Assembly (NCBI GenBank): GCA_036562265.1
Contig: DATCKS010000491.1
Coordinates: 1-6,684, forward strand
DNA: 6,684 nt
Direction: 5' to 3'
Origin: DASVDK01 sp036562265 [NCBI: Thermodesulfobacteriota bacterium]
Lineage (GTDB): Bacteria > DASVDK01
The notes beneath the pieces were generated by a model. That model made no database searches. It saw only the letters and a program-made list of their open reading frames with translations, and was not told the origin of the DNA. Both the position numbers and the translations under genes were made by a program. This document shows, one piece after another, positions 200-6,581 of the stretch (position 1 is its first letter; each line of letters opens with the position of its first letter).

Positions 200-982
200 C
201 TAGGGCACGTCGCCGGGGAAGGGGCCCGAGCCGGGCAGGTCGGTGACGAACATGTGCCCGGGGGCGTGCGTGATCGCGAAGGGGAGTCGGGCCTCGAGGA
301 GCGCGGCCTGGGGCGTGACGCCGCAGGCCCAGAAGACCGGCACCTCGCCCGGATGCACCGTGACCGGGTCGCCGTAGTCGGGGCGGCCGAGGTCGGCGAT
401 GCCGAGGCCGGCCGGCTCCCCCACGTGGATCGGCGCGCCGTGGACGCGCGGGACCCGGCCGGTGATCTCGACGACGCGAGGGATCTCGGCCGGCTTGAAC
501 GGGCGCATCGTGACGACGAGCGGCCCGCGGAAGGGACCGGCCGGGACGGTGGGCCGGCTCGTCCGGTACATCGGCACGTTTCGGCGCTCCGAGACGTGCC
601 GGACCTCGAGGCCGGCCTCGAGGAGCGGGCCCTCGAACGAGAGGGAGCAGCCGATGAGGAAGGCGACCAGGTCGTCCCGCCAGACGGCCCGCACGTCGGT
701 CGGCTCGTCGGCGAGGACGCCGTCGCGCCAGACGCGGTAGCGGGGCAGGTCGGTGCGCAGGTCGGCCCCGGGCGCGCAGGCCGGCTCGGTCGCGCCGACG
801 TCGAGCACCTCGAGCAGCGGACAGGGTCTCGGGTTGCGCTGGCAGAAGAGCAGGAAGTCGTAGGCGTACTCCCGCGGCAGCGCCACCAGGTTCGCCTGCG
901 CGTACCGTGGCGCCAGCCCGACCGTCGGTCCCGTCCATTCGCCCGCCCTGATCGCTCGCCTCGCCTCGGATGCCGACTGCAT
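200..982 (-). CDS. DUF1445 / D-glutamate cyclase-family (YcsI-like) protein
   Basis: This 260-residue protein has the typical length of the DUF1445 (UPF0317, putative hydro-lyase) family. Its conserved blocks occur in order: [10 protein letters not shown] (108-117), RNVPMYRT (134-141), [10 protein letters not shown] (181-190), [11 protein letters not shown] (215-225) and [12 protein letters not shown] (237-248). Known context: the family includes B. subtilis YcsI, found near 5-oxoproline (pyroglutamate) catabolism genes, and the related domain of mammalian D-glutamate cyclase, which makes 5-oxo-D-proline from D-glutamate. No PxpA/B/C genes are visible here, so the substrate is inferred only from the family. 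No signal peptide or membrane segment is seen; it should be cytosolic. The reading frame stays open 35 codons further upstream, but the ATG at 982 was chosen because AGGAGG lies 4 bases before it and homologous sequence begins there. The gene is transcribed divergently from the GGDEF gene. Confidence 0.9.
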
Positions 983-1050: not shown

Positions 1051-1089
1051 CACTCCCGTTGCACACCCTCAGGCGTGAGCCGCTCACCG

Positions 1090-1980
1090 ATGCGCCTGCT
1101 GCTGGTCGGATCCACGCCGGACGACGCCGCGCGCTTCGAGGCCGGCCTCGCGCGCGCCTCGCCCGCGCCGGTCGAGGTCCGCCCGGCGGGCGGCCTCGCC
1201 GACGCCGCGCGCCACCTGGCCGAGGGGCGGGTCGACGCGATGGTGATCGACGCGGTTCGGCCCGAGGGGCGCGACCTCGAGGCGCTCAGGCGGACCTGTC
1301 GCGACTGGCCCCACCTGCCGGTGGTCGTCCTGACGGCGGCCGGCGACGACGCGTTCGGCCTCAAGGCCATCGAGGCGGGGGCGCAGGACGCCCTGCCGAA
1401 GCCGGACACGACGCCTCCGCTCCTGGCCCGCGCCGTGGCCTACGCGGTCGAGCGGCAGCGGCTCCTCTGCGAGATCCGGGCTCTCGCGCTCGTGGACGAG
1501 CTGACCGGCCTGTACAACCGCCGCGGCTTCTTCACGCTCGCCGGCCACGAACTGCGCGTGGCGGCGCGGCAACGCCGGCGCGTCTTTCTGCTCTTCGCCG
1601 ACCTCGACGGCATGAAGTGGATCAACGACTCGCTCGGCCACGCGGCCGGCGACCGCGCGCTGATCGAGGCGGCCGAGGTGCTGAAGGCGACCTTCCGCGA
1701 GTCGGACACGATCGCCCGGCTGGGCGGCGACGAGTTCGCCGTCTTCGCCCTGTCGTCCGGCCGGCGGGCGGCTCGCGACCGGCCGGCCGAGCGCCTCCGC
1801 CGCGCCCTCGCGGAGCGAACCCGCCGCCCCGGCCGGCCGTTCCCGCTCGCGATGAGCATCGGCGTCGTCGAGCGGGTGCCCGACGCGACCACCACCATCG
1901 ATCAGCTCCTCGCGATCGCGGACGAGCGGATGTACCGCGACAAGCGCGCGCGGGGTGCGGGCCGCCCGCGTGCCGGCTGA
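1090..1980 (+). CDS. Response-regulator diguanylate cyclase (REC-GGDEF)
   Basis: The 296-residue protein has an N-terminal receiver-like domain (about 1-120) and a GGDEF domain (about 130-290). The cyclase domain looks intact: [12 protein letters not shown] (136-147), [10 protein letters not shown] (171-180), GHAAGD (183-188), GGDEF (212-216), SIGV (256-259) and an AD..MY..K ending (278-285). An RxxD inhibitory site (R203-D206) lies exactly five residues before GGDEF, so product inhibition by c-di-GMP is expected. The predicted reaction is two GTP to c-di-GMP plus pyrophosphate, in the cytosol. In the receiver, D54, T82 and K104 match the phosphoacceptor, switch threonine and lysine, but the acidic pair after strand 1 is replaced by G7-S8. 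Metal binding and phosphorylation may therefore be weakened or absent. M175 replaces the common Phe in the F-K-x-I-N-D motif. The start ATG at 1090 has no strong ribosome site; an in-frame GTG at 1075 is an alternative. The longer upstream frame is not domain-like. Confidence 0.93.
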
Positions 1981-1984
1981 GCCG

Positions 1985-2012
1985 GCGGCGCCGGCCCCGG
2001 CCGGGGCGCCGC
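1985..2012 (+). terminator. Candidate GC hairpin downstream of the GGDEF gene
   Basis: GCGGCGCC (1985-1992) and GGCGCCGC (2005-2012) form a perfect 8-bp stem around a 12-base GC loop, starting four bases after the GGDEF stop codon. There is no T-tract after it. Its position suggests a 3' end structure for the GGDEF transcript. The rest of the 235-base gap to the usp gene shows no convincing gene, and no clear promoter could be picked out. Confidence 0.3.
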
Positions 2013-2203
2013 GCAACCGGCCGGGGGGGAGGCGGGGCGTCCGCGCCGTGGCACGCGCGCCCCACCGGGGAGGCCGTGTCTCCTCCCCCGAGGCGAGCCG
2101 CCCTCGGTCCTGCCGCCGTGACGGGGGCTTGTGCGACCGCGCGCGCGGGCATCCTTGATGCAGCCGCCTTCGGGCGAGGCGACCCACGGCGCGCCGCGAA
2201 AAA

Positions 2204-2210
2204 GGGGAGG
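2204..2210 (+). promoter_or_regulatory. Shine-Dalgarno of the usp gene
   Basis: GGGGAGG, preceded by a run of five A residues, lies 5 bases before the ATG at 2216 and fixes this start. Confidence 0.75.
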
Positions 2211-2215
2211 TCCGC

Positions 2216-2698
2216 ATGTTCACGAAGATCCTCGTGCCGCTCGACGGCTCGCCGCTCGCGGAGCGGGCGCTGCCGATCGCGGTCGGTCTGGCCAAGCTCA
2301 CCGGGGGGGCGATCACCCTCGTGCACGCCGTCGAGGCGTCGGGCCTGCCGGGGACCGACAAGACCGACGCCGAGGTGGAGGTCGTGCGCAAGGGCGAGGC
2401 GTACGTCGAGGGGGTCGAGCAGCGCCTCCGCTCCGAAGGGGTCAACGTGCGCTCGGCCGTCTGGTACGGGCCGCCGGTCTTCGCCATCACCGAGGCGGCT
2501 CGCATCGGCGGGACCGACGTCATCGTCATGAGCACGCACGGCCGCGGCGGCCTGGGCCGCCTCGTCCTCGGCAGCGTCGCCGACGCGGTGATCAGGCGGA
2601 CGAGGGTCCCGGTCCTCCTCGTGCGCGAGGCGGAGGCGCCGCTCGAGGAGCCGTTGCCCGGACCGGCGGCGGTCCCTCGCTCGCCGGAAGGAGCCTGA
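2216..2698 (+). CDS. Universal stress protein (UspA family)
   Basis: A 160-residue single-domain Usp. The N-terminus has the family signature ILVPLDGSPLAERAL (5-19) including the conserved strand-1 Asp, D10. The C-terminal nucleotide loop reads STHGRGGLGR (106-115) then LGSVADAVIRR (118-128) and PVLLVR (132-137). This fits the G-x2-G-x9-G-S ATP motif (G109, G119, S120), except that the first Gly is Ser at 106, a frequent variant. The protein is probably an ATP-binding cytosolic dimer; Usp proteins are linked to stress survival, but their molecular roles vary. The last 20 or so residues are rich in Pro, Ala and Glu, slightly longer than usual, and probably disordered. The gene is the first of a probable operon: the dehydrogenase starts 4 bases after this stop, with its ribosome site inside the end of this gene. 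Confidence 0.95.
   Translation: MFTKILVPLDGSPLAERALPIAVGLAKLTGGAITLVHAVEASGLPGTDKTDAEVEVVRKGEAYVEGVEQRLRSEGVNVRSAVWYGPPVFAITEAARIGGTDVIVMSTHGRGGLGRLVLGSVADAVIRRTRVPVLLVREAEAPLEEPLPGPAAVPRSPEGA
2686..2693 (+). promoter_or_regulatory. Shine-Dalgarno of the dehydrogenase gene, inside usp
   Basis: GGAAGGAG overlaps the last codons of usp and lies 9 bases before the GTG at 2703. It supports GTG rather than the ATG at 2718 as start, and implies co-transcription and probable translational coupling with usp. Confidence 0.7.
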
Positions 2699-2702
2699 GC
2701 CT

Positions 2703-3752
2703 GTGCGCGCGTTCGTCATGAAGGGGATCGGGCAGGTGGCGGTCATGGAGAAGCCGGTGCCCGAGCCGGGACCGAACGACGCCGTCGTCAGGACGACGAC
2801 GGCGCTCGTCTGTACCTCGGACACGCACACCGTGGCCGGCGCCATCGGCGACCGGCGCGACCTCACCCTCGGCCACGAGGCGGTCGGCGTCGTCCACCGG
2901 CTGGGCAGCGCGGTGAGAGGGTTCAGGGCAGGCGACCGCGTGGCGGTCAACGCCATCACGCCGGACTTCCGGTGCGAGAACTGCCAGCGCGGCTACACGT
3001 CCCAGTGCACGGAGATGCTCGGCGGCTGGAAGTTCGCCAACCTGAGGGACGGCAACCTGGCCGAGTACTTCCTCGTCAACGACGCCGAGGCGAACCTCGC
3101 CCCGATCCCCGACGGCCTCACGGACGAGCAGGCCGTCTACTGCACCGACATGCTCTCGACGGGGTTCATGGGCGCCGAGCATGCGGCCATCCCCATCGGG
3201 GGGACGGTGGCCGTGTTCGCCCAGGGACCGGTCGGCCTCATGGCGACCGCGGGGGCGAGGCTCCTCGGGGCCGGGCTCGTCATCGCGGTGGAGAGCGTGC
3301 CCCGGCGCCAGGAACTGGCCCGCCACTACGGCGCCGACGTGGTGATCGACCACACGAAGGAGGATCCGGTCGAGGCGATCCGCCGGCTCACGGGGGGCCA
3401 GGGGGTCGACTCGGCCATCGAGGCGCTCGGCGCCGAGGCGACGTTCCAGGCGTGCGTTCGCGCGACCCGACCCGGCGGCACCATCTCGAACATCGGCTAC
3501 CACGGGCACGGGGACGTCATCGGCCTGCCGCGGCTCGACTGGGGCGTGGGGATGGGGGACAAGACCATCCGCACCGGCCTCTGCCCCGGCGGCCGCGAGC
3601 GGATGAGCCGCCTCATGCGCCTGGTCGAGCGGGGTCGCGTCGATCCGACGCTCATGACGACGCACCGCTTCGCCTTCGACGAGATCGAGACGGCGTTCCG
3701 GATGATGGCGACCAAGGAGGGCGGCATGATCAAGCCGCTCATCCGCTTCTAG
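2703..3752 (+). CDS. Zinc-dependent medium-chain secondary alcohol dehydrogenase
   Basis: This 349-residue MDR-family protein resembles, from recall, the Thermoanaerobacter/Clostridium secondary alcohol dehydrogenases along its whole length: an early CTSDTHT block, GHEAVG, AITPD, QRGY, GWKFAN, GPVGLMA, GLCPGG and IKPLI. Predicted catalytic zinc ligands are C37, H58 and D149, with E59 next to H58. The Rossmann glycine motif is GPVGLM (175-180). At the end of the second strand the sequence is AVES (195-198): an acidic E197 sits where the NADP-specific relatives have Gly, and V199 sits where they have Arg. This predicts NAD preference. C91, C94 and C102 have structural-zinc spacing, with D88 in place of the first Cys, while the Thermoanaerobacter enzyme lacks such cysteines. 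The expected reaction is reversible oxidation of an alcohol to a ketone or aldehyde in the cytosol; the substrate is unknown. GTG start, chosen because MRAFVM aligns with the family N-terminus (MKGFAM) and a ribosome site precedes it. It sits between usp and an OsmC gene, suggesting stress-linked expression. Confidence 0.93.
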   Translation: MRAFVMKGIGQVAVMEKPVPEPGPNDAVVRTTTALVCTSDTHTVAGAIGDRRDLTLGHEAVGVVHRLGSAVRGFRAGDRVAVNAITPDFRCENCQRGYTSQCTEMLGGWKFANLRDGNLAEYFLVNDAEANLAPIPDGLTDEQAVYCTDMLSTGFMGAEHAAIPIGGTVAVFAQGPVGLMATAGARLLGAGLVIAVESVPRRQELARHYGADVVIDHTKEDPVEAIRRLTGGQGVDSAIEALGAEATFQACVRATRPGGTISNIGYHGHGDVIGLPRLDWGVGMGDKTIRTGLCPGGRERMSRLMRLVERGRVDPTLMTTHRFAFDEIETAFRMMATKEGGMIKPLIRF

Positions 3753-3785
3753 CGCACCCGGAGAGCGGGCGGGTCCGGAGGGACG

Positions 3786-4241
3786 ATGGGCGAGGGGACG
3801 ATCCGGACGATCGTCGGTCGCGAGCGCGGCTACCGATTCCGCATCCGATTCGACCAGGCGGGCGTGCCCGACCTCGTCACCGACGAGCCGCCGCCGCTCG
3901 GCAACGGGGAAGGGCCCAACCCCGCGAGGCTCCTCGCGGCCGCGGTCGGCAACTGTCTGGCGGCGAGCCTCCTCTTCTGCCTCACGCGGGCCCGGATCGA
4001 GGTCGGAGGCCTCACGGCCACGGTCGACGCGACGCTCGGACGCAACGAGCAGGGGCGGCTGCGCGTGACCGGGATGCGAGTCGTGCTGGCTCCCGAGGTG
4101 CCGGCAGAGGCGCGGGATCGGATGGCGAGGTGCCTCGAGATCTTCGAGTCGTTCTGCATCGTCACGGAGAGCGTACGCAAGGGGATCGACGTGACGGTCG
4201 AGGTCGAGCCGGTCGCCGGCGGTGCCGACCGGACGCCGTAG
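3786..4241 (+). CDS. OsmC/Ohr-family protein, probable thiol peroxidase
   Basis: A 151-residue OsmC-fold protein. Family features are GPNPARLLAAAVGNCLAASL (43-62), with the predicted peroxidatic C57 at the start of the central helix, and ESFCIVTESVRKGIDVTVEV (121-140), with C124 at the second active-site position. OsmC and Ohr proteins reduce organic hydroperoxides through such a Cys pair, usually as dimers with lipoyl or other thiol reductants. Whether this one acts on peroxides is inferred. Two further cysteines, C65 and C116, are present. The C-terminal FCIVTESV pattern is closer to the broad OsmC/YhfA group than to classical Ohr, so no symbol is given. GGAGGG ends 3 bases before the ATG. 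The gene follows the dehydrogenase after 33 bases on the same strand, probably as the third member of the usp operon. Confidence 0.88.
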   Translation: MGEGTIRTIVGRERGYRFRIRFDQAGVPDLVTDEPPPLGNGEGPNPARLLAAAVGNCLAASLLFCLTRARIEVGGLTATVDATLGRNEQGRLRVTGMRVVLAPEVPAEARDRMARCLEIFESFCIVTESVRKGIDVTVEVEPVAGGADRTP

Positions 4242-4510: not shown

Positions 4511-4520
4511 GGGAGGGAGG
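4511..4520 (+). promoter_or_regulatory. Shine-Dalgarno of the DUF6335-like gene
   Basis: GGGAGGGAGG ends 5 bases before the ATG at 4526. The reading frame is open for a long way upstream of this point, as is common in GC-rich DNA, so this ribosome site decides the start. Confidence 0.8.
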
Positions 4521-4525
4521 CGCAC

Positions 4526-4891
4526 ATGGGACGAACGCGCAGGCAGAAGACGAAGCGGCCGGCACCGCCCCGGCGCAGGGCGTGGGGCGACGCGAGCGGC
4601 CGGATCGGACGGATGGCGGTGGAGCTTACGCGCTACCACGAGACGGGGCCGATCCTGTCGGGCGGCGACCTCGACGCCGACTGGCAGCACGCGCACCTCT
4701 ACGGTGACGAGGCGGTCGGCGGGAGCGTGGCGACGCCCGACCAGGACATGGTCGACGAGATCGGGCGCGCCCTCGGGGTCGAGCAGGACCTCGACGCCGA
4801 ACTCTGGTCCTTCGACGAGATCCTGCGCCGCCGCGACCGGAACCGGTGGGCGCTCGAGGCGGAGGCGGCCCTGGAGGAGCGATGGATGTAG
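4526..4891 (+). CDS. DUF6335-like small protein of unknown function
   Basis: A 121-residue soluble protein. Its N-terminus (2-18) is strongly basic and probably disordered. The core matches, from recall, the DUF6335 pattern seen in cyanobacteria and other bacteria: SGGDLDADW (45-53), GDEAVGGSVATPDQD (60-74), VDEIGRALGVE (76-86) and RDRNRW (103-108). No function is established for the family, and no catalytic motif, signal peptide or membrane segment is seen. The acidic, Trp-containing core with a basic tail could suit a small binding protein, but that is speculation. The start at 4526 follows a strong ribosome site. The 3' end overlaps the start of the phosphotransferase-like gene by 10 bases, so the two are probably translationally coupled. 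The 284-base gap upstream suggests that this gene opens its own transcription unit. Confidence 0.82.
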   Translation: MGRTRRQKTKRPAPPRRRAWGDASGRIGRMAVELTRYHETGPILSGGDLDADWQHAHLYGDEAVGGSVATPDQDMVDEIGRALGVEQDLDAELWSFDEILRRRDRNRWALEAEAALEERWM

Positions 4892-5991
4892 CCCGGCCCG
4901 CGCCGGAGGCGGAGGCGCTCCGCCGGTACCTCGAGGGGGTCCTCGGCGCGCCGGTCGGCGACGTGACGGTCTCGGCGCTCGGCGGCGGGCCGTCGGGGAC
5001 CGACCTGAAGCGGTTCGGCTACGGCACGCCGCTCAGGATCGACTGCGTCGTCGGCGGCGAGCCGCGGCGGTTCGTCCTCGCCAGGCAGCGCGTGCAACCG
5101 GGCTACGGGCACGACTACCCGTCGGACCGCGCCCAGGCGGCGCTCTGGGCCCACGACGCCTACAACCGGCTCCCCCGTCACGTGGCGAGCCGCGACGTCG
5201 GGTTCCTCCTCGACTCCGGCGCGCTCGTCTCCGTGGCCGGCTGGCGCGACGCCTTCCAGCTCGTCGACTTCTCCGAGGGGACCGAGTACCGGCGCGACCT
5301 CGAACGGATCGCCGACACCCGCGCGCTCGGTCCGGGGGACATGGACCGCGTCGACGCGCTGGCCGCGTACCTTGCCGGGATCCATCGCGAGCGGCACGAC
5401 GCGCCGCACATCTACCACCGGCGGATCCGGGAGCTGGTCGGTCACGGCGAGTGCATCATGGGGGTGCTCGACGGCTATCCGGAGACCTTCGCGCTCCTGC
5501 CGCCGGCCGAACGCGAGGCGATCGAGCGGGCCGCCGTCTCCTGGCGCTGGCGCCTGCGCGGCCGCGTGCACCGGCTGGCCACGGCGCACGGCGACTTCCA
5601 CCCCTGGAACATCCTCTTCAGGACGGAGACCGACTTCACGCTCCTCGACCGCAGCCGGGGGGAGTGGGGGGAGCCGGCCGACGACGTGGCGGCGCTCGTC
5701 GTGAACTACCTCTTCTTCGCGCTCGTGTCCGAAGGGCGCTTCCGCGGCCCGCTGCGCGTCTGCTTCGAGCGCTTCCTCGAGCGCTACCTCGACGCGACCG
5801 GTGACGCGGAGCTGTTCGAGGTCCTGCCCCCCTTCCTCCTCTTCCGCGGCCTCGTCCTTGCGAGCCCCAAGTGGTACCCGACGCTCGACGAGGGGATCAG
5901 GCGGAGCCTCCTTTCGCTCGTGCGGCGCATGGCCGAGCCGGCGCCGCTCGATCTTGCGGCCGTGGAGGCCGCCCTCGAGGGTCGGCCGTGA
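4882..5991 (+). CDS. Aminoglycoside-phosphotransferase-fold kinase, substrate unknown
   Basis: A 369-residue kinase of the APH/choline-kinase fold. The catalytic loop HGDFHPWN (236-243) supplies D238 as base and N243 for metal. LLDRSRGEWGEPADDVA (254-270) supplies the second metal Asp, D256, and the D-V-A helix start. The N-lobe has a Gly-rich stretch GGGPSG (34-39). At the usual ATP-lysine strand the sequence is FVLARQ (64-69), with no Lys at the expected place. The central region contains a distinctive ELVGHGECIMGVLDGYP block (184-200). The protein probably phosphorylates a small molecule with ATP in the cytosol; antibiotic resistance is not implied. The ATG at 4882 lies 2 bases after GGAGGAG and overlaps the upstream stop; the longer frame only adds Gly-rich translation of the upstream gene. 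Its stop overlaps the CysC-like start (GTGA), so the two kinases should be made together. Fold confidence is high, substrate unknown. Confidence 0.9.
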   Translation: MDVARPAPEAEALRRYLEGVLGAPVGDVTVSALGGGPSGTDLKRFGYGTPLRIDCVVGGEPRRFVLARQRVQPGYGHDYPSDRAQAALWAHDAYNRLPRHVASRDVGFLLDSGALVSVAGWRDAFQLVDFSEGTEYRRDLERIADTRALGPGDMDRVDALAAYLAGIHRERHDAPHIYHRRIRELVGHGECIMGVLDGYPETFALLPPAEREAIERAAVSWRWRLRGRVHRLATAHGDFHPWNILFRTETDFTLLDRSRGEWGEPADDVAALVVNYLFFALVSEGRFRGPLRVCFERFLERYLDATGDAELFEVLPPFLLFRGLVLASPKWYPTLDEGIRRSLLSLVRRMAEPAPLDLAAVEAALEGRP

Positions 5992-6581
5992 GCTTCGCCA
6001 TCTGGATCACCGGTCCCCCCGGGTCGGGCAAGAGCACCATCGCGCGGGAGGCCGCGCGGCGCCTCGCCGCGGCGGGCCGTCCGGTGCGCGTCCTCGAACT
6101 CGACGAGGTCCGCAAGGTCGTCACGCCGGCGCCCACGTACAGCGAGGCGGAGCGGGACATCGTGTACCGGGCGCTCGCGTACATGGCGAAGCTCCTGGTC
6201 GAGGTCGGCCAGCCGGTCATCGTCGACGCGACGGCCCACCGGCGCGCCTGGCGGGACCTCGCGCGCCGTCTCGTCCCGCGGTTCGCCGAGGTCGAGCTCG
6301 ACTGCCCGCTCGAGGTCCGGGCGGCGCGCGAGCGGAGCCGGCGCGAGGGACACGCCCCTCGCGGCATCTACGCGCGCGCGGAGGAGCCGGGGGCGACCGT
6401 GCCGGGTGTGAACGTCCCCTACGAGTCGTCGGCCGCGCCCGAGCTTCGCCTCGACACCGCCGGGACCGACCTCGAGCAGCAGGTGGAGGCCGTCGTGGGC
6501 CTCGCGCGCCGTCTCGATCCGGAGTCGGGCGCGGGCGAGCCGTCGCCCGCCCCGCGCGCCCCCGAACGCCGGGACGCGTGA
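5988..6581 (+). CDS. CysC-like (adenylylsulfate kinase family) P-loop kinase
   Basis: A 197-residue P-loop kinase. Walker A is GPPGSGKST (9-17). The order of motifs follows APS kinase: LELDEVRKV (37-45), YSEAERD (51-57), VIVDATAHRRAWR (77-89), LDCPLEV (104-110), GIYARA (126-131), PGVNVPYE (139-146) and PELRLDT (151-157). APS kinase makes PAPS from adenylylsulfate and ATP. Here, however, the FISP-type block reads DATAHRR, the FTGID block reads VPGVN, and the segment before GIYARA is lengthened and Arg-rich. The true substrate may therefore differ. No sulfate assimilation gene is adjacent. The last 20 residues, rich in Pro, Arg and Glu, look disordered. The GTG at 5988 overlaps the upstream stop by 4 bases and follows GAGGG (5977-5981) at 6 bases; it places the first strand directly at the N-terminus. 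Databases would likely label this adenylyl-sulfate kinase, which I regard as only family-level. Confidence 0.85.
   Translation: MSFAIWITGPPGSGKSTIAREAARRLAAAGRPVRVLELDEVRKVVTPAPTYSEAERDIVYRALAYMAKLLVEVGQPVIVDATAHRRAWRDLARRLVPRFAEVELDCPLEVRAARERSRREGHAPRGIYARAEEPGATVPGVNVPYESSAAPELRLDTAGTDLEQQVEAVVGLARRLDPESGAGEPSPAPRAPERRDA

Follow-up and report, generated by a model that had tools for sequence, protein, structure and literature searches.

A conserved kinase pair of archaea and bacteria as candidate enzymes of an orphan small-molecule pathway

We analyzed a 6,684-nucleotide stretch of a Thermodesulfobacteriota bacterium genome (DASVDK01 sp036562265, assembly GCA_036562265.1, contig DATCKS010000491.1; hereafter, the window), in which a gene for a kinase of the aminoglycoside phosphotransferase (APH) fold is followed by a gene for a P-loop kinase resembling CysC, the adenylyl-sulfate (APS) kinase. 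The two kinases are a real conserved unit that spans archaea and bacteria and reaches beyond close relatives, and we consider it an even chance that they are enzymes of one orphan small-molecule pathway common to archaea and several bacterial phyla, with the CysC-like kinase acting after the APH-fold kinase. An earlier note on this DNA had proposed a functional module of three genes, the third encoding a DUF6335 protein. Its coordinates and the gene overlaps of 10 and 4 bases were correct when checked in the sequence (Table 1), and the 4-base overlap makes translational coupling of the two kinase genes likely; an in-frame GTG at position 4846 is an alternative start of the APH gene. As detailed below, the two kinases hold together as a unit, and DUF6335 drops out of it.

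The genome collection contains at least 530 relatives of the APH-fold kinase, and the locus counts given here refer to the best 80, which show 43-59% identity, the closest (59%) being encoded in a Rokubacteria genome. These 80 loci come from Rokubacteria, NC10, Nitrospirae, Bryobacterales, Betaproteobacteria, Planctomycetota, Methanoperedens, Methanothrix, Bathyarchaeota, Hecatellales, and others. A CysC-like gene adjoins the APH gene in 66 of them (62 downstream and 4 upstream), with a gap of more than 100 bases in 8 of the 66 (118-607 bases), so that the adjacency across phyla that the earlier note had put forward as a check was found from Rokubacteria to Bathyarchaeota. For the remaining 14 loci, a strong CysC-like match is present elsewhere in 12 genomes and in neither G005 nor G012. 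The note had also named fusion of the two kinases, and no true fusion was found among the loci examined. One candidate, a 503-residue open frame in G056, was treated as an assembly gap, as its junction has an X that stems from N in the DNA and its CysC part is devoid of the P-loop.

The pairing extends to whole genomes. Both kinases are encoded in 38 of the 120 genomes sampled around a Methanoperedens genome (APH only, 1; CysC-like only, 1; neither, 80), in 19 of 121 around a Bathycorpusculum genome (APH only, 1; CysC-like only, 0; neither, 101), and in 34 of 95 from the Rokubacteria/NC10 phylum (APH only, 1; CysC-like only, 5; neither, 55). The corresponding one-sided Fisher values (6e-29, 3e-21, and 3e-19, respectively) are overstated, given that the genomes are related and a few of them also supplied profile rows. 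Among the genomes with both kinases, the two genes are same-strand neighbors in 16/38, 12/19, and 28/34, respectively; because only part of these genomes have adjacent genes, the coupling persists without linkage in many of them, with distances of 39 kb in G104 and about 380 kb in G089. The CysC-like gene was searched for with a profile (A2), for which the limits between strong and weak matches were set at observed gaps (215 vs 178, 233 vs 191, and 185.6 vs 172 bits); in many genomes, the first-pass search scored part of the candidates only, and G056 and G350, whose matches are truncated or low-scoring, were scored positive from the position of the gene. The samples include many metagenome-assembled genomes, which are incomplete; the Methanoperedens and Bathycorpusculum sets were evenly drawn, and the phylum names of the samples are in part what we take to be their GTDB names. 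Some rows of the alignments or profiles A1 (APH), A2, or A4 (phosphatase, see below) came from genomes that were also in the samples, and counts over the 80 loci, or over the 151 stretches used for the neighborhood comparisons below, ignore relatedness.

DUF6335, by contrast with the kinases, is encoded in none of the best 80 APH loci (BLASTP, E 1e-4). In the 95 Rokubacteria/NC10 genomes, DUF6335 is present in 24 and the APH-fold kinase in 35, and in all 12 genomes with both, the two lie on separate contigs. We therefore rejected DUF6335 as a member of the module: its gene is a local neighbor and no component of the kinase pathway.

The APH-fold kinase falls into the APH/choline-kinase superfamily (PF01636) by a score above the cut-off (Table 1), by its catalytic motif, HGDFHPWN, and by its fold. 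Family-specific motifs are LDRSRGEWGEPADD, KxFGYG (family consensus KGFGYG), RIRELVGHGECIMG, and ASPKWYP, and 54 columns are invariant in an alignment of 81 homologs (A1). The solved structures nearest to its AlphaFold2 model (mean predicted local distance difference test score, pLDDT, 87.7) are those of 5-methylthioribose kinase (Z 22.4-21.4), PsiK (Z 21.3), and 25-hydroxysteroid kinase (Z 20.6). Thus, the protein shares with 5-methylthioribose kinase and other PF01636 kinases the overall fold (Z about 22 for the former) and the catalytic HGDxHPxN motif, but differs from them in sequence (11-14% identity) and in motifs of its own, such as RSRGEWGEPADD. Because other APH-fold kinases score within 2 Z units of 5-methylthioribose kinase, the fold match does not identify the substrate.

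The CysC-like protein is not a typical APS kinase: it shares the fold of these enzymes but belongs to a separate subfamily. The structure nearest to its AlphaFold2 model (mean pLDDT 91.6) is Archaeoglobus fulgidus APS kinase (7yq1; Z 25.1, root-mean-square deviation 1.7 over 170 residues, 39% identity), whereas its score against the apsK model TIGR00455 (98.5 bits) is under the cut-off of 138.7. We compared 116 family domains (including the window's own, a degenerate second tandem domain from L062, and a fragment without P-loop from L188) with 20 APS-kinase-type domains, which were picked as weaker A2 matches and are not assayed enzymes. The subfamily motifs are DAT (80-82) and PG (139-140): in the family, D80 and A81 are present in 116/116 domains and T82, Y60, and P139 in 115/116 each, whereas the APS-kinase-type domains have Ser/Ala at 80, Ile/Val at 82, Thr at 139 (20/20), and no Tyr at 60, where APS kinases have Asn, Ile, Leu, or Ala. 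Ala at 81 also occurs in 4 of the 20; D80 and T82 occur in none. In the tree, a single branch (support 0.78) separates the 20 APS-kinase-type domains from the family.

Other parts of the active site are kept. R42 and R56, present in 116/116 family domains, correspond, when mapped by spacing, to Arg483 and Arg497 of Mycobacterium tuberculosis CysC, which bind the phosphosulfate (PMC4373884), and Asp39, three residues ahead of R42, and the YE motif are retained as in APS kinases. In APS kinase, the adenine is sandwiched by two aromatic residues, Phe492 and Phe576; at the first of these positions, the family has Tyr (113/116), and at the second Val (103/116), a position that varies among the APS-kinase-type domains as well (8 Phe, 9 Leu, and 3 Met of 20). 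Furthermore, in the 120-genome Methanoperedens sample, ATP sulfurylase (PF01747) was found in 9 of the 39 genomes that have a CysC-like gene vs 14 of the 17 that have an APS-kinase-type gene, a count in which G143 falls into both classes, the CysD/CysN-type sulfurylase was outside the search, and five genomes whose A2 matches were partial (63-83 bits), none with PF01747, were assigned to neither class. Because R42 and R56 are retained, the active-site loops differ, and ATP sulfurylase is not tracked, the substrate of the CysC-like kinase probably carries a phosphate and is probably not APS. In several Rokubacteria/NC10 loci (L006, L008, L014, L017, L062, and L063), the CysC-like gene contains two tandem CysC-like domains, split in L062; in the five second domains that we compared, several key residues are missing, and the L017 frame continues beyond the second domain into a stretch that by eye looks CBS-domain-like.

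Many archaea have a third enzyme that tracks the pair. In the same 120-genome sample, a profile built from 16 sequences of an inositol-monophosphatase-family phosphatase (A4) matched 32 genomes, 30 of them at 299.8 bits or more and 2 with truncated sequences near 196, the next score being 181 bits. All 32 genomes carry at least one kinase of the pair and 30 carry both, whereas the phosphatase was absent from all 80 genomes that lack both kinases (Fisher 6e-22, with 7 of the 32 genomes having supplied A4 rows). In 14 genomes, its gene shares a contig with neither kinase gene, and in G070 and G133 it is likewise on a separate contig from the only kinase gene found. A gene of this family is located downstream of the kinase or kinases in 20 of the 151 stretches. 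The phosphatase belongs to the inositol-monophosphatase/fructose-bisphosphatase family (PF00459, PRK12676) but is a subfamily of its own that tracks the kinase pair; the L141 protein scores 170.6 bits against PRK12676 (cut-off 264). We also scanned 134 of the 310 de-duplicated near genes and 134 of the 463 distant genes for Pfam families, with 25 families shown for each set. The commonest families in the near set are inositol monophosphatase (7), CBS (5), and Usp, the universal stress protein (4); in the distant set, Usp has 3 members, CBS 2, and inositol monophosphatase is absent from the families shown. From these counts, the link of the phosphatase looks specific and that of Usp regional. 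An inositol pathway was considered and rejected, as inositol-1-phosphate synthase, present in 25/39 APH-positive vs 40/81 other genomes, has no specific link to the pair. In L212-L226, the unlinked archaeal phosphatase gene is often found next to genes that by eye encode ABCE1, Elp3, peptidyl-tRNA hydrolase Pth2, or aIF5A, an apparent translation theme.

Other recurring neighbors are related to S-adenosylmethionine (SAM). The gene for AhcY, the S-adenosylhomocysteine (SAH) hydrolase, is placed closely upstream, in the same orientation, in 25 of the 151 stretches, in some operons together with the phosphatase gene, and within four genes of a kinase in 36. Within the same distance, we found an archaeal-type methionine adenosyltransferase in 7 stretches and, in 11, an amidohydrolase resembling 5'-deoxyadenosine/5'-methylthioadenosine/SAH deaminases that scores below every equivalog cut-off shown. 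In L135, L141, and L142, a gene for a PfkB-family kinase weakly resembling nucleoside kinases is located between the AhcY and APH genes, and because this operon already includes such a kinase, the role of adenosine kinase is less likely for the APH protein. Archaeal-type methionine adenosyltransferase genes were also seen near the pair in the bacterial loci L019, L020, L035, L038, L048, L066, and L074 (NC10, Nitrospirae, and a betaproteobacterium), and the Nitrospirae loci L038 and L048 have a SAM hydroxide adenosyltransferase gene. In Methanothrix and related genomes (L111-L114, L116, and L161), a diverged paralog of type II glyceraldehyde-3-phosphate dehydrogenase (79 bits vs a cut-off of 185 in L113) and a gene that by eye is splicing-endonuclease-like come after the unlinked CysC-like gene.

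The proposed sequence of reactions is as follows. The APH-fold kinase would probably phosphorylate a hydroxyl of the starting metabolite, and the CysC-like kinase would probably add a second phosphate to the product, whose first phosphate would be held by the same two arginines that bind the phosphosulfate of APS in true APS kinases. In many archaea, the dedicated inositol-monophosphatase-family enzyme would act in the same pathway and remove a phosphate. Successive phosphorylation by the two kinases, suggested in the earlier note, thus remains the best mechanistic reading and gains some residue-level support from R42 and R56; the order of the steps, their action on one molecule, and a metabolite close to the SAM/adenosine cycle are conjectural. 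More tentatively, and with somewhat greater doubt than expectation, we suggest that this archaeal-bacterial pathway makes or cycles a bisphosphorylated metabolite, with an APH-fold kinase followed by a relative of APS kinase and, in archaea, a phosphatase that reverses one of the phosphorylations, and that it runs beside the SAM cycle. As part of this suggestion, the pathway would resemble the APS kinase/3'-phosphoadenosine 5'-phosphate phosphatase cycle with a different carrier.

Several observations weigh against the reaction sequence proposed above. The pair is known from sequence and predicted structure, the substrate and activity assignments are putative, and the APH-first order derives from the retained arginines. 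The phosphatase, searched for in one archaeal phylum only, is lacking in 8 of the 40 kinase-carrying genomes of that sample, six of them presumably Methanothrix-like, and five Rokubacteria/NC10 genomes have the CysC-like gene only. The score limits for A2 and A4 were chosen after the gaps had been seen. The neighbors vary by lineage as well: AhcY and the phosphatase in archaea, and Usp, archaeal-type methionine adenosyltransferase, and a fructose-bisphosphatase-family or ThiI-like gene in bacteria; because of this difference, the link to the SAM cycle may hold mainly for archaea.

A role of the pair in tRNA or translation, with the CysC-like protein being similar to O-phosphoseryl-tRNA kinase and its partners modifying a tRNA- or translation-linked substrate, appears unlikely. 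The archaeal copies often lie beside genes for cysteinyl- or histidyl-tRNA synthetases and TruD, as well as tRNA guanine methyltransferase-like and splicing-endonuclease-like genes (most of these names assigned by eye), and four tRNA-synthetase Pfam families have two members each among the 134 near genes scanned (one protein may match several) and do not appear in the distant set as far as shown (25 of 169 families, 134 genes). However, translation genes are common in archaea, and the scans covered only the fractions of near and far genes given above. The CysC-like model does match phosphoseryl-tRNA kinase (Z 17.4), but APS kinases and gluconate kinases are better structural matches, and the score against the corresponding equivalog, TIGR03574, is 37.1 bits vs a cut-off of 290.5.

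A reading in which the CysC-like protein is no more than a diverged APS kinase, with the pair belonging to sulfate activation, is improbable. The fold, the P-loop, the two phosphosulfate-binding arginines, the preceding Asp39, and the YE motif are shared with APS kinases, an aromatic residue is retained at one adenine position, and one family member, L042, passes the NCBIfam apsK cut-off (146.1 vs 138.7 bits), so that misannotation as APS kinase can arise. Against this stand the separate branch, the different active-site loops in 115-116 of the 116 domains, and the linkage of the CysC-like gene to the APH-fold kinase rather than to ATP sulfurylase of the PF01747 type; moreover, G143, G256, G022, and G004, among others, carry both the CysC-like and the APS-kinase-type gene. 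In anaerobic methanotrophic (ANME) archaea, one study reports proteins as APS kinase, one of which was seen in metaproteomes (PMC6286981); these might belong to the non-APS CysC-like family.

We give just as little credence to the idea that the pair represents a COG2187-type bifunctional kinase, as found in dormancy regulons, split into two genes. Rv2004c, a protein of this type, is a fusion of APH and P-loop kinase domains encoded beside a Usp gene, and the likeness lies in the combination of the two kinds of kinase and in the stress-protein neighbors of some bacteria: a Usp gene stands in tight order on the same strand with a kinase of the pair in 9 Rokubacteria/NC10 stretches (8 of them APH loci) and, by eye, likewise in the Burkholderiales locus L055, and the window has Usp, OsmC, and GGDEF-regulator genes further upstream. 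Here, however, the kinases are separate genes, with no true fusion in the loci examined, the P-loop part is APS-kinase-like, and Usp shows no specificity for the closest genes (4/134 near vs 3/134 far). The APH protein has no match in a plasmid collection at E 1e-5; at E up to 10, it gave weak partial matches in 17 records, nearly all around the catalytic motif. In 13 genomes from the same phylum as G020, a search for AAA_33 found one protein, in a 175-residue frame. Finally, co-inheritance through descent and gene transfer without joint function would fit the relatedness of many sampled genomes and the five Rokubacteria/NC10 genomes with the CysC-like gene only, but is very improbable, as the coupling holds for unlinked genes in three phylum samples and, in one archaeal phylum, includes a third, often unlinked enzyme.

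The three genes of the window lie downstream of a stress-island-like setting (1081-4241) composed of genes for a GGDEF regulator, Usp, an alcohol dehydrogenase, and OsmC (Table 1). As for an anti-phage role, PADLOC gave weak matches only for the CysC-like protein (best 20 bits) and none for the APH or DUF6335 protein. Among the titles and abstract openings found in literature searches on Rv2004c dormancy and SAH hydrolase/APH/APS-kinase themes, none describes an APH/CysC-like pair, and searches on DUF6335 found no paper.

Table 1. Features of the window (positions count from its first nucleotide).
Feature	Positions	Strand	Evidence
D-glutamate cyclase family gene, left end of the window	203-982	-	PF07286, E 2.8e-65
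Response regulator/GGDEF gene	1081-1980		
Usp (universal stress protein) gene	2216-2698		
Zinc alcohol dehydrogenase gene	2703-3752		
OsmC gene	3786-4241		
Shine-Dalgarno-like stretch of the DUF6335 gene, GGGAGGGAGG	4511-4520	+	By eye
DUF6335 open reading frame, 121 aa	4526-4891	+	PF19861, E 1.8e-25
Shine-Dalgarno-like stretch of the APH gene, GGAGG	4873-4877	+	By eye
DUF6335/APH overlap, 10 bases	4882-4891	+	Direct from sequence
APH-fold kinase open reading frame, 369 aa, ATG start	4882-5991	+	PF01636, 24.8 bits vs cut-off 23.2
Shine-Dalgarno-like stretch of the CysC-like gene, GAGG	5977-5980	+	By eye
APH stop/CysC-like start overlap, 4 bases, GTGA	5988-5991	+	Direct from sequence
CysC-like P-loop kinase open reading frame, 197 aa, GTG start	5988-6581	+	PF01583, E 6.6e-26

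To conclude, an APH-fold kinase whose 80 best relatives, out of at least 530, show 43-59% identity, together with a partner that looks obligate in both archaea and bacteria, points to an important undescribed reaction and, if the more tentative suggestion made above is true, to a pathway masked by the annotations aminoglycoside phosphotransferase and adenylyl-sulfate kinase. Because the CysC-like half can pass an automatic cut-off, as L042 does, reconstructions of sulfate assimilation may contain false APS kinases, and the residues compared here (DAT, PG, and Y60) tell the CysC-like family from APS kinases. The pair and the archaeal phosphatase would provide a genetic and biochemical entry to the metabolite.

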